A stretch of DNA of 64,000 nucleotides from Gemmatimonadota bacterium (GTDB taxonomy: Bacteria > Gemmatimonadota > Gemmatimonadetes > Longimicrobiales > Gaopeijiaceae), in NCBI GenBank assembly GCA_029262115.1, contig JAJCZZ010000082.1, positions 62,001 through 126,000 on the forward strand, in the 5' to 3' direction. The notes below the pieces were generated by a model that was not told where the DNA came from, searched no databases, and was given only the letters and a program-made list of their open reading frames with translations. Position 1 is the first letter of the stretch, and each line of letters starts with the position of its first letter. The position numbers and the translations under genes were made by a program. Positions 42,357-46,505 of the stretch are shown in pieces.

Positions 42357-43061
42357 TCAGCCGCCCGGCTTTGGCCGCGGCCTGTCCTGGGTGAGCGGTT
42401 CGGTGCCGGGGTGGGCCGGGGGGCCTGGGCGGTCGAACCGCTGGATGCCTCCGGGGCGAATGCGACCGTCGCGAATCAGCCGCCGCAAGCGGTCGGCGGC
42501 TGCGGCGGGTGTATGACCGTCACGCATGAGGGCACGCAGCCGCGCGGGAATCTCGAGGAGCGCTTCGTCGCCCGCCCGCCGATCCATGGCATAACGCAGG
42601 ACTTCCAGCACCCGTTCCAGGGGCACCCCCGCCTCGACCAGGTCGGCCATGACCACGACGGCCATCGGGGTTCGGTCCCCCGGGGAGCCGAGCCGGCTCA
42701 GCCCGTCCTCGGATACGCCCCGACGGAGGGCGTCTGCCCCGGCCACCATCAACGCGATCGAAGCGGTGGGGCCGAGCGCCTGTCGGGCTGTCCCCAGACG
42801 GCCCGCGTACAAGGTGACGGCCGCGGCGATACGGTCCGGGGGCACCCGCTTGGCCGCCCCCTCCAGCGCCTTGTCGTAGAGGGGCTCGACGGGCAGCCCC
42901 CTCCCTGCCGCTTCGCCCGCGACCGCCTCCACCTGGGCGAACAGGTCGGGCGGAAGGGTCGCGCGGGCGCGCTCCCGTCCGCCGGTATCCTGCCCTCGCA
43001 CGCCTCCCGCCAACGCGCCCGACATCAGCACGGCCACGGCTACTCGAATCAGGCCTCGCAT
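42357..43061 (-). CDS. Exported hypothetical protein of the ECF/CBM48 operon
   Basis: 234 residues from ATG 43061, 17 nt after the CBM48 barrel-like gene. A signal sequence (GLIRVAVAVLMSGALAGGVRGQ) is followed by a helical domain: FAQVEAVAGEAAGRGLPVEPLYDKALEGAAKRV, ALRRGVSEDGLSRLG and VVVMADLVEAGVPLERVLEVLRYAMD. The tail (PGPPAHPGTEPLTQ) is Pro-rich. No family recognised. Placement suggests it is the last gene of the sigma-factor operon and works with the CBM48 proteins in the envelope. Confidence 0.65.
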   Translation of the reverse strand: MRGLIRVAVAVLMSGALAGGVRGQDTGGRERARATLPPDLFAQVEAVAGEAAGRGLPVEPLYDKALEGAAKRVPPDRIAAAVTLYAGRLGTARQALGPTASIALMVAGADALRRGVSEDGLSRLGSPGDRTPMAVVVMADLVEAGVPLERVLEVLRYAMDRRAGDEALLEIPARLRALMRDGHTPAAAADRLRRLIRDGRIRPGGIQRFDRPGPPAHPGTEPLTQDRPRPKPGG

Positions 43062-43078
43062 CGCTCCCGTTCCTCCGC

Positions 43079-44194
43079 TCACGGCACTACGAGGGTCGCG
43101 TTCGTTCGACCCCACTCGTCGGGGACGTTCCCCGGCAAGCCCTCCGGCACCACCCACTCCCCATCGATCAGAAAACCGAAATGGTACGTCCCCGGGGGAA
43201 CCGAGAGTTCCGTCGTCCACCCGCCCGACGTGCGGCGCATGGGCACGGGTTCCCAGTTCGTGAAATCGCCCAACACCGCTGCGCTTTCGGCATTGCCGCG
43301 GTCGAGACGGAAGACGACGCGCGGACCGTCCGCGCTCGGCTGCACCCGCGCCACCGGCCGGGGGGCGTTTCCCCACGTCAGCCCCTGCCAGCCGAGGACC
43401 ACTCCTCCCTGTCGACCCGGTTCGACCAGAGTCAAGGGATCGGGAGCCGTGGTGCCGCCGCCCAGCAACGCGCTCCACCGATCCCCCAAGGGGACCCGGA
43501 CGGCGAGCCCCCCGGCCCATGCGTTGCCGTCGGGCGTCTCCCACCCCTCGACTTCGCCCTGGACGATGACCCGGGCCAGCAGGCCGGTGAGCCTCAGGCC
43601 CGCTCGCCGGAACGTCCCTCCACGGGAGGAGTGGACGCCCGCGCCCGCGCTTGCCTCGACGGCACCGTCGACCACGCTCACCTCCGCGTCGACGCCGCGA
43701 CGCCACAGGTCCACGGTCCGCGTGCGCACCTCATCACCACGGCGGAGTCGCACTTCGGTCCGGCCGGCGCCGAGGCGGCCACGCAGCCTCCCTGTGACCC
43801 GGCGGTGGCTGATACGGACCATGGGGGAGACCTCCCCAGTGATGGCTTGATACGGAAAGGGTTCGGCGACCCTGAACCCGTATCCACGTGCCGCGAGGCC
43901 GACCTCGACAGGCCCGGCCGCCGCGAACCAAGCCTCGATTCCGGTGAGGCCCGTCAAGAAGTCCGCGCCACCGCCGGCCGTTTCAAAGCCCCGCGTGAGG
44001 ACCGCCCAACCACTCCTCGTGGGGCCGCCCACCTCGATGCGCACCCCCGCGGTGCCATAAACGCCCGTGGCTTCGTCGACCCCTGAGGGCGGGAACGTCC
44101 GGGCTACCCCCGCCTCCAGGGTCACCCCCTGGGCGGCCTGTCCGGTCGTGGGAGTCGGGACCACGAGGAGAGCGGCGATCACGAGACGCACCAC
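43079..44194 (-). CDS. Exported barrel-like protein with C-terminal glycogen-binding (CBM48-like) domain
   Basis: 371 residues from GTG 44194, starting 2 nt after the preceding stop. A signal sequence (LVIAALLVVPTPTTGQAAQ) precedes ~250 residues of alternating short strands (GVRIEVGGPTRSGWAV, VEVGLAARGYGFRV, LRGRLGAGRTEVRL, VIVQGEVEGWETPDG), which look like a beta-barrel or beta-sandwich. The last ~85 residues are AMPK-beta/CBM48-like: ESAAVLGDFTNWEPVPM, WTTELSVPPGTYHFGFLIDGEWVVPEG. Members bind alpha-glucans; here that would be extracytoplasmic. Operon with the sigma factor. Confidence 0.72.
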   Translation of the reverse strand: MVRLVIAALLVVPTPTTGQAAQGVTLEAGVARTFPPSGVDEATGVYGTAGVRIEVGGPTRSGWAVLTRGFETAGGGADFLTGLTGIEAWFAAAGPVEVGLAARGYGFRVAEPFPYQAITGEVSPMVRISHRRVTGRLRGRLGAGRTEVRLRRGDEVRTRTVDLWRRGVDAEVSVVDGAVEASAGAGVHSSRGGTFRRAGLRLTGLLARVIVQGEVEGWETPDGNAWAGGLAVRVPLGDRWSALLGGGTTAPDPLTLVEPGRQGGVVLGWQGLTWGNAPRPVARVQPSADGPRVVFRLDRGNAESAAVLGDFTNWEPVPMRRTSGGWTTELSVPPGTYHFGFLIDGEWVVPEGLPGNVPDEWGRTNATLVVP

Positions 44195-44195
44195 G

Positions 44196-44819
44196 TCAGG
44201 CGGCCGGAGCCGGCAAGGCCACGGCCACCACCGCGTTGCGGCTGCCGAAGCCGTCGTCCACGTACCGCTCGGCCCGTGGGTCGGTGACCCACTCACCCCC
44301 GTCGACCCGGAACATATACTCGTGCAGGCCCGGGCGGAGCGGGACCCGTCCGGTCCACACGCCGTCACCGTCGGTGTCCTCCAGCAGGTGCCGACCGTCC
44401 CACTCGTTGAAGTCGCCCGCCACCGCGACCTCCAGGGCGCCGGGCGCCTCGAGGACGAACTGAACGTAGATGATGGGCTCGGCAGCACCGTCCGCCGAGG
44501 GCTCCCCGCTCCCACGGATCCAGGGCACGGCAATGAGGGTCGCTACGGTCGCGGCCACGAGGCCCCCCGCGAGGGGCGAGATCCGCACGCTGCGGCGTGC
44601 CGTCAGCCACGCGAACCCCCGCTCGATTGGGCCGGACGCGGGCAGCGTGCGGACACGGGCCATGACCTGCTCCTCGACGAACGCCGGGGCGGGCCCAGGC
44701 GCGTCCGACCGCAGGGTGCGCGCCAGGCGTTCCCACGCTTGTGCCTCGGACCTCTCCGCCGGCGACAGGTCATCCATCGGGACATCCCCATCCAGGAATC
44801 GATCCAGTTCGTCGCTCAT
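44196..44819 (-). CDS. Anti-sigma-like single-pass protein with C-terminal CBM48-like domain
   Basis: 207 residues, ATG 44819 overlapping the sigma-factor stop (ATGA), the usual coupling of ECF and anti-sigma genes. The N-terminus (~1-70) is acidic and helical (DELDRFLDGDVPMDDLSPAERSEAQAW); the H-x3-C-x2-C zinc motif of ZAS anti-sigmas is absent. One transmembrane helix (~88-103, GGLVAATVATLIAVPWI) separates it from an outer domain similar to AMPK-beta glycogen-binding modules: VAVAGDFNEWDGRHL, TGRVPLRPGLHEYMFRVDG and EWVTDP. This topology suits a receptor that senses glucan outside and frees the sigma factor inside. That function is inferred. Confidence 0.72.
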   Translation of the reverse strand: MSDELDRFLDGDVPMDDLSPAERSEAQAWERLARTLRSDAPGPAPAFVEEQVMARVRTLPASGPIERGFAWLTARRSVRISPLAGGLVAATVATLIAVPWIRGSGEPSADGAAEPIIYVQFVLEAPGALEVAVAGDFNEWDGRHLLEDTDGDGVWTGRVPLRPGLHEYMFRVDGGEWVTDPRAERYVDDGFGSRNAVVAVALPAPAA

Positions 44820-45361
44820 CTGTATGCCTCCAGAACTTCGCGCAGGCCGTCCCGCGCTCGATGAACCCTCATCTTCAGTGCCGGCACCGAAATGTCCAGT
44901 AGATCCGCCATCTCCCCGTAGGATCGGCCTTCGACGTGCTTCATCACGAACGCCTCCCGCTGCTCCGGCGGCAGACGTTCCAGCGCGTCGTCCACCCGCC
45001 CCCTTAGCTCATTCCCGTGTGCCACGCCATCAGGACCCTCCCGGGCGTCCGCCACCGGGGCCGCAACGCGGAGCGGCACGGTCCGTTTCCGACTCCTGAG
45101 GTGGTCACGACACAGATTCGACGTGATCCGGAAGAGCCATCCCCCGACCCGGTGCGGTTCGGTCAGCGTGCGTAGCCGCTCGAAGCCTGTGATCAAGGCG
45201 CGCTGCACGAGGTCTGCCGCTTCGTCGCCGCCACCCACGACCCGGACTGCGTGAGCGTACAACACGTCCTGGTACCGCCGTACCAATACGCCGTAGGCGT
45301 CCGTGTGCCCCGCCAGGACCGCCCTGACGACGTCGACATCGGAAGGCTCGCTGGGGTCCAT
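44816..45361 (-). CDS. ECF-type RNA polymerase sigma factor
   Basis: 181 residues. Region 2 is AYGVLVRRYQDVLYAHAVRVVGG followed by DEAADLVQRALITGFERL and VGGWLFRITSNLCRDHLRSR; region 4 is DALERLPPEQREAFVMKHVEGRSYGEMADLLDISVPALKMRVHRAR. Both sigma domains are intact and there is no region 3. It starts a four-gene operon with two CBM48-domain proteins and an exported helical protein. A strong hairpin lies just upstream. Confidence 0.92.
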   Translation of the reverse strand: MDPSEPSDVDVVRAVLAGHTDAYGVLVRRYQDVLYAHAVRVVGGGDEAADLVQRALITGFERLRTLTEPHRVGGWLFRITSNLCRDHLRSRKRTVPLRVAAPVADAREGPDGVAHGNELRGRVDDALERLPPEQREAFVMKHVEGRSYGEMADLLDISVPALKMRVHRARDGLREVLEAYR

Positions 45362-45382
45362 GACTCAACGTAGGCCCGGGTG

Positions 45383-45418
45383 CTCAGGGACCGCCATCAT
45401 CGTGATGACGGCCCTGAG
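45383..45418 (-). other. Long hairpin upstream of the ECF sigma gene
   Basis: CTCAGGG (45383-45389) pairs with CCCTGAG (45412-45418); inside, CCGCCATCA (45391-45399) pairs with TGATGACGG (45403-45411) with one mismatch, leaving a 3-nt loop. It ends 22 nt before the sigma start codon and follows the lipoprotein gene end (45486). It could terminate the lipoprotein transcript or form a leader structure. No T-run follows. Confidence 0.6.
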
Positions 45419-45485
45419 ACACGTCCGCTCCGCTCCGACGCCAGGGGCTCACGCCCCCGGCGCCCGATCGGCCGCTCCACGGTGT

Positions 45486-46175
45486 TCAGGCCAGGAGCAG
45501 GCTCGAGATCACCGCCGAGCGCCACAGGAAGACGACGCCCCGGACGTTTCCGCCCTCGAGCAGAAGCACGCCCCGCTCGTGAAGCTGATGCGCGATCGCC
45601 AACAGCTTGGATTCGTGGGGCGTGGGGTCGTCCCCGAGGGCCGCCCGGGCCTGGCCGAGCAGGTCGGCGGACAGCGTCGACAACGTCCTGGCCTCTTCTT
45701 CGGTCACGCCTCCCGGCACGACCACCGCTTTGAGCGAAGTGATCAGTGCGTGCTCTGCCAGCGCTGCGGCGCGACCGAGCTCTCCTGCCTCCCAGGCGGC
45801 CTGTGCGGCCCGCTGGGCCTCGATGGCCCGTTCCAGGAAACGTAGCTGCTCCGGATCCGGAGCATCGCCGATCAGGCGGGTGGCGAGCTCCACCGCCTGG
45901 TTTCCCATCGTGAGCATGAGACGGGGACGCGCGTCTCGCTGGCGCTCCGGGCGTCCGTCCCGAACGGTGTCGGACAACGCGACGTAGGACACCAGCGAGT
46001 CCTGTGCCTGCAGGGACGTGATCCCGGCCGCCTCCACAGCGGCCTCGGCGACCGTGGCCGCCGCGAAATCAGGCTCCGGGTCGAAAGCGGTGGGTCCACC
46101 GTCCTCGCAGGCCGCCAGGGCGGCGGTGAGGACGATGGCGGCGGTCACGGTGCTACGGAAGGTCTGGCGGCTCAT
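45486..46175 (-). CDS. Helical lipoprotein of unknown function
   Basis: 229 residues from ATG 46175 with GAGGAGG upstream. The leader ends LTAALAAC, a good lipobox. The mature chain is nearly all alpha-helical: VAEAAVEAAGITSLQAQDSLV, LMLTMGNQAVELATRLIGD, AIEAQRAAQAAWEAGELGRAAALAEHALI, and HQLHERGVLLLEGGN, in a pattern recalling paired-helix repeats. No domain name fits. It precedes the ECF operon on the same strand with a 124-nt gap holding a hairpin, so it may or may not share the transcript. Confidence 0.68.
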   Translation of the reverse strand: MSRQTFRSTVTAAIVLTAALAACEDGGPTAFDPEPDFAAATVAEAAVEAAGITSLQAQDSLVSYVALSDTVRDGRPERQRDARPRLMLTMGNQAVELATRLIGDAPDPEQLRFLERAIEAQRAAQAAWEAGELGRAAALAEHALITSLKAVVVPGGVTEEEARTLSTLSADLLGQARAALGDDPTPHESKLLAIAHQLHERGVLLLEGGNVRGVVFLWRSAVISSLLLA

Positions 46176-46505
46176 TGAGGGCCTCCTCTGAAGTCGAGTA
46201 TCGTTCGTGAACGGGTGACCGGTGACGCGCGTCGATGTCCGGTTCAGGAGGCAGACGGTTGGACGGACGAAAAGGTCACAACCCGACGCCTTGTCCCGTG
46301 CGTCCGCGGCCCGTCCTTTGGGTGGATCCTCGCCGCCTTGGGATCCCTGCCCCTGGTGCGGGCCAACGTCGTCAGGAGACCGTGCCGTGCCGAACCGTCC
46401 CTGTCCCCCGCATTCCCACTCCACCGCCTGCAAACCCCTTTACAACCCTGGGACCGGACTTCAACGGGACCTCCCGCTCCCGGGCGGGGCCGCGGAGTCC
46501 ATCTG
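46176..46505. other. 330-nt divergent intergenic region
   Basis: Lies between the lipoprotein start and the lactate permease start and should carry promoters for both. The permease frame is open upstream to 46215, but those residues are Arg/Pro-rich and unlike the family. I see no further gene, no strong palindrome and no convincing -35/-10 pair. Confidence 0.4.

Follow-up and report, generated by a model that had tools for sequence, protein, structure and literature searches.

In Gemmatimonadota, an ECF sigma factor (S), a membrane anti-sigma factor ending in a CBM48 domain (A), a barrel protein carrying a CBM48 domain of its own (B) and an exported all-helical protein (HEL, or H in gene orders) form a conserved and apparently undescribed gene set. 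We consider the chances about even that this set constitutes an autoregulated sigma/anti-sigma switch carrying a signal across the whole envelope and, on the best reading of the proteins, the CBM48 domains would act in this switch as sensor or contact modules.

In the window, that is, the 64 kb stretch of DNA that was analysed, gene calls place the sigma, anti-sigma, barrel and HEL genes head to tail on the minus strand (42357-45361), where a previous reading of the sequence alone had located four genes. The sigma gene (44816-45361, 181 aa) overlaps the anti-sigma gene (44196-44819, 207 aa) by ATGA, as had been described. The barrel gene (43079-44194, 371 aa) is adjacent to the latter, although the GTG start adopted here leaves a gap of 1 nt instead of the 2 nt first given, and the next gene is that of the exported helical protein, HEL (42357-43061, 234 aa), as expected. 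However, the unit is not restricted to these four genes. It extends further upstream to position 46280 and includes the gene of a lipoprotein, LIP (45486-46175, minus strand, 229 aa, lipobox LAAC), preceded by an ECF-type promoter, TGTGACC-N16-CGTCT (46253-46280, minus strand), which was recognized by comparison of 60 loci. The operon is surrounded by genes for peptide chain release factor 3, a lactate permease, a MacB/FtsX permease with a PadR regulator, and a membrane dipeptidase, and no carbohydrate link is evident among these neighbours. In the whole genome (5.45 Mb), which has Gemmatimonadota/Longimicrobiales assemblies as its closest named relatives, AMPK1_CBM matches are confined to the anti-sigma factor and the barrel protein. 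An Rfam search of the 64 kb window gave no match.

The sigma factor matches Sigma70_r2 (7.8e-15) and Sigma70_r4_2 (9.4e-17) in Pfam and scores 85.7 bits with TIGR02937 (cut-off 42.9). Regions 2 and 4 are the only sigma-70 regions of this 181-residue protein, as is typical of ECF sigma factors. In 8 genomes, a cut-off of E<=1e-20 gave one sigma ortholog per genome. The sigma gene is no longer part of the operon in genera g36 and g45, where each genome has exactly one close ortholog elsewhere. This lone ortholog (loci L313-L318) lies far from its anti-sigma gene and without the promoter motif, mostly adjoining a citrate-synthase-like gene.

The anti-sigma factor is predicted to comprise a cytoplasmic zinc-less anti-sigma domain (residues ~1-75), a transmembrane helix (82-101) and a periplasmic CBM48 (117-200). 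Its AlphaFold model has four N-terminal helices before the membrane helix, and its best fold matches are the carbohydrate-binding modules of AMPK beta. Since arginines precede the membrane helix, the N-terminus is probably inside the cell. Searched against the PDB, a profile of 37 sequences matches the anti-sigma domains of RseA (E 0.021) and RsiW (E 0.041) in this N-terminal part, weakly but specifically: the E-values are weak, and these were the only matches beyond carbohydrate-binding-domain proteins. A helical N-terminal domain and a gene overlapping that of its sigma factor, together with these weak RseA and RsiW matches, place the protein with the class I anti-sigma factors (ASDIs). The NCBIfam 'anti-sigma factor' profile matches 23 of the 37 family members, and Pfam finds DUF2275 in some members and zf-HC2 in one homologue. 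The coupling of the sigma factor to this protein, proposed in the sequence-only reading, is thus supported by both the overlapping genes and the anti-sigma-type N-terminal domain. The same reading remarked that the inner domain lacks the usual zinc motif. Indeed, HxxxCxxC occurs in none of the 37 homologues, yet this is ordinary: the motif is not obligatory, being absent from ~44% of ASDIs (PMC7406223), and we no longer regard its loss as a surprising feature.

Both C-terminal domains had been described as CBM48-like, and profile searches place both of them over the Pfam cut-off. That of the anti-sigma factor matches AMPK1_CBM (9.8e-10; 39.0 bits for a PF16561 cut-off of 26.8) and CBM_48 (5.8e-07), each above the Pfam gathering score, and that of the barrel protein matches AMPK1_CBM with 2.3e-11 (44.2 bits, same cut-off). 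AMPK1_CBM is matched by all anti-sigma homologues (37/37) and all barrel homologues (29/29). The possibility that these domains are merely Ig-like was rejected, as the profile and the fold of the anti-sigma domain both rank AMPK beta first. The CBM48s of the two proteins fall into two separate groups, with an identity of 32.2% in the same operon versus 31.8% between operons, which does not support a recent duplication or gene conversion. Since pairs from the same operon are no more alike than pairs from different operons, this comparison lends no support to a contact between the two domains. We also observed a DxDGDG loop resembling a calcium-binding loop within the anti-sigma CBM48 (residues ~147-154), which is present in anti-sigma factors of S-A-B-H-type operons and absent from those of the A-B-S-H type.

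Structure prediction, suggested earlier for the 207- and 371-residue proteins, gave a membrane helix with a CBM48 for the former and a barrel with a CBM48 for the latter (pLDDT 89.8). In the AlphaFold model of the 371-residue protein, the signal peptide is followed by a 14-strand beta barrel (residues 23-273) and a C-terminal CBM48 (~282-370), which bears out the strand-rich, barrel-like character first noted for this sequence. The best PDB fold matches of the barrel model are OmpG and other porins, including the cyclodextrin porin CymA, a likeness that is common to many porins. An outer-membrane barrel with an even number of strands has both termini on the periplasmic side. Because 14 is an even number, the CBM48 of the barrel protein is predicted to be periplasmic and not surface-exposed and, its C-terminus then lying on the same side as that of the anti-sigma factor, the two CBM48s would share the periplasm. 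The claim that both domains face outward thus stands as far as a location outside the cytoplasm is concerned, but not for exposure at the surface, given the 14-strand model.

Homologues were collected from 59 relatives, from genome contigs and from the whole phylum, the genes of the relatives being called with a simple codon-usage caller. The sigma, anti-sigma, barrel and HEL genes occur together in 37 non-redundant loci, as judged from gene calls and profiles, which, along with the AMPK1_CBM match in every anti-sigma and barrel homologue, speaks against a chance finding. Conservation of the gene order beyond this genome had been proposed as a check: the order S-A-B-H does recur in relatives, while A-B-S-H, S-A-H-B and S-A-H-B-H are found elsewhere with the same four genes. 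As the genes are kept together while their order shuffles, they likely work together. Some related sets have no detected barrel or sigma gene nearby, partly at contig ends. Among Gemmatimonadota genomes at least 90% complete (n=121), the anti-sigma family is present in 78, covering 44 of the 62 genera of the phylum. Two loci assigned to Myxococcales (L139) and Gammaproteobacteria (L137) are possible binning errors and were excluded as proof of spread. One genome (G126) contains four candidate copies of the system (L330-L333) that differ in gene content.

The promoter TGTGACCTTTTCGTCCGTCCAACCGTCT (46253-46280), located before LIP, is the sole match to GTGAC-N16/17-CGTC on either strand of the 64 kb window. 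With the same consensus and spacers of 14 to 20 allowed, a promoter precedes the operon or a linked lipoprotein gene in 47 of the 60 related loci (shuffled sequences: 0.4; control upstream regions: 3/505), a count obtained from sequences that are related and not independent, though many genera are covered. Since these operon upstream regions served both to recognize the motif and to count it, genes of DUF4382 lipoproteins, which often adjoin the operon, offer a more independent test. The motif was found in 16 of 28 of them (0.1 expected by shuffling) and in 2 of 30 sugar-transferase (Bac_transf) genes used as a control family. It is kept before the anti-sigma, barrel and HEL genes where the sigma gene has moved elsewhere, and in relatives it also precedes HEL inside A-B-S-H operons. 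Before most sets outside the order Longimicrobiales, it was not seen. Because the only promoter match of the window precedes LIP, the operon most likely runs LIP-S-A-B-H, with five genes. We infer that the motif is a probable target of this sigma factor and, as the same promoter precedes 47/60 operons and 16/28 DUF4382 lipoprotein genes, the system is probably autoregulated.

The genome under study contains 9 matches to the pattern, compared with 0 in a reversed control. Only the one at this operon is properly placed before a gene, and a large regulon in this genome was thus rejected; its DUF4382 gene does not have the motif. Two other occurrences were noted in other genomes: a divergent promoter pair that separates the gene of a lipoprotein from that of a polyprenyl sugar-transferase and heads an exopolysaccharide-like cluster (L241 3700-5800, G054:C74), and a motif 62 bases before the gene of a GH26-like secreted protein (L234 2578-3728, G007:C72).

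LIP homologues sit directly upstream of the sigma gene in the closest relatives, and LIP has no confident family in Pfam. The region between LIP and the sigma gene (45362-45485, minus strand) contains two strong hairpins (fold z -5.07), and five relatives (L063, L102, L103, L104 and L109) also have hairpins at this place. These hairpins may cut read-through from LIP, which would keep the sigma factor below LIP in amount. Nearly every copy of the module includes HEL. Many members have a Pro/Gly-rich tail, and a K..EG.AKG.P motif is conserved. No known family was found for HEL in Pfam and PDB searches; weak matches to T2SSF in both were judged uninformative for helical bundles and rejected.

In the mechanism that we propose, the cytoplasmic domain of the anti-sigma factor would tether the sigma factor to the inner membrane at rest, as expected from homology, and its periplasmic CBM48 would share the periplasm with the CBM48 of the 14-strand outer-membrane barrel. 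The input may be a saccharide that enters through the barrel or binds at it, or else an alteration of the barrel. The signal would be relayed via the two CBM48s, through a shared ligand or by direct contact, and the anti-sigma factor would then release the sigma factor, probably after regulated proteolysis. Free sigma factor would act at TGTGAC-N16/17-CGTC promoters, that is, at its own five-gene operon and, in relatives, also at HEL and the DUF4382 lipoprotein genes. A more specific form of this proposal, which we consider possible though less likely than not, is a phylum-wide TonB-independent cell-surface signalling in which porin and anti-sigma factor talk via their paired periplasmic CBM48s and share a sugar as ligand.

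The nature of the input is where alternative explanations diverge. Two tryptophans of AMPK, W100 and W133, stack on glucose, with which N150 forms a hydrogen bond, as seen in cyclodextrin contacts (PMC9788615). At the equivalent positions of the anti-sigma CBM48, W100 (37/37), W133 (36/37), N150 (37/37) and L146 replaced by F (37/37) are nearly invariant, whereas K126 and T148 are not conserved; the barrel CBM48 has W100 in 29/29 and W133 in 27/29 but N150 in only 9/29. The alpha-glucan ligand proposed from the sequence alone therefore agrees with four contact positions of the anti-sigma factor and not with K126, T148 and the N150 lost from most barrels. Taken together, glucan binding by CBM48 is plausible, and the conservation of sugar contacts favours sugar binding by the anti-sigma CBM48, with the caveat that related CBM48s, those of CE1 esterases, did not bind any glycan tested (PMC8040265). 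The system could then be a glycan receptor of the RsgI type, in which the anti-sigma CBM48 alone binds alpha-glucan or another oligosaccharide in the periplasm, the barrel being an uptake porin whose CBM48 retains the sugar. The nearly invariant contact positions, the resemblance of the barrel to CymA and the binding of polysaccharides by RsgI anti-sigma factors via their C-terminal CBMs (PMC4711584) are in line with this possibility. However, the contact positions that are not kept, the wide occurrence of the CymA-like fold among porins, and the lack of a glycoside hydrolase or sugar transporter gene adjoining the operon, or generally behind the promoter, speak against it, and we consider it possible though rather doubtful.

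The CBM48s may instead have become protein-protein modules, with the anti-sigma factor monitoring barrel assembly or envelope integrity in an RseA-like manner, while lipoproteins, barrel and HEL repair the envelope. The recurrent promoter targets are envelope proteins, and the nearest solved anti-sigma domains are those of RseA and RsiW. Moreover, the CBM48s of CE1 esterases, which failed to bind any glycan tested, pack against a neighbouring domain (PMC8040265). Near-invariant aromatic and Asn residues at sugar-contact positions are hard to reconcile with such a role, although W and N could be structural, and we regard this explanation as unlikely. A control of exopolysaccharide, in which the barrel would handle a polysaccharide of the cell's own making and the sigma factor would adjust its synthesis, appears highly improbable. 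A few genomes (G054, G037, G046 and G052) do have the promoter before genes of sugar transferases or polysaccharide synthesis, but the 2/30 Bac_transf genes represent scattered cases, and no strict match precedes such a gene in the genome studied here. A general regulation of exopolysaccharide genes was rejected on these grounds. The autoregulated switch spanning the envelope remains our preferred reading. Its ligand and mechanism are testable now, since the promoter motif provides a reporter and the preserved tryptophans provide point mutants.

The sequence-only reading knew of no system with this layout. In the open-access literature, we found no description of the layout, nor of CBM48 or AMPK1_CBM together with an anti-sigma factor, but the idea of a CBM-tipped membrane anti-sigma factor is known from RsgI/SigI of Clostridium thermocellum (PMC4711584). 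The likeness to RsgI includes an N-terminal sigma-binding part, one membrane passage, a C-terminal carbohydrate-binding module and an autoregulated operon. However, SigI is not an ECF sigma factor, RsgI-N is another domain, and the CBM3, PA14 or GH10 modules of RsgI lie outside a Gram-positive cell, with no outer-membrane barrel (PMC4711584). No operon protein matches an RsgI profile in the profile searches, and the sigma factor is an ECF with regions 2 and 4. In Actinobacteria, ECF52 also combines ECF signalling with a membrane helix and a carbohydrate-binding module on the outside, but does so in a single polypeptide that contains a zinc finger; its CBM is a different one, and there is no outer membrane (PMC5826349). 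RseA of the sigma-E system likewise has an anti-sigma domain without the zinc motif and a single membrane helix, and the profile matches it weakly, whereas its periplasmic part is not a CBM48 and no barrel is encoded alongside. The CBM48s of AMPK beta and GlgB share the fold and the main sugar-contact residues but are cytoplasmic, while those described here belong to envelope proteins and are not attached to an enzyme.

The FecI-FecR-FecA system likewise encodes together an ECF sigma factor, an inner-membrane anti-sigma factor with a periplasmic C-terminus and a barrel with a periplasmic domain of its own (PMC9249621). FecA is a TonB-dependent receptor with a plug and an N-terminal signalling domain (PMC9249621), whereas the 14 strands of the barrel described here start right after the signal peptide, without a plug, and the additional domain of this protein is a CBM48 at the C-terminus; the periplasmic domain of FecR is unrelated to the CBM48 of the anti-sigma factor. 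The layout across the envelope is thus best read as FecIRA-like, but with a barrel of the OmpG/CymA type. The set belongs to none of RsgI/SigI, FecIRA and ECF52, because its sigma factor is not SigI, its barrel is not TonB-dependent and its parts are separate proteins. It would represent a widespread sigma circuit of a poorly studied phylum, which joins CBM-tipped anti-sigma factors to outer-membrane-to-sigma signalling without TonB.
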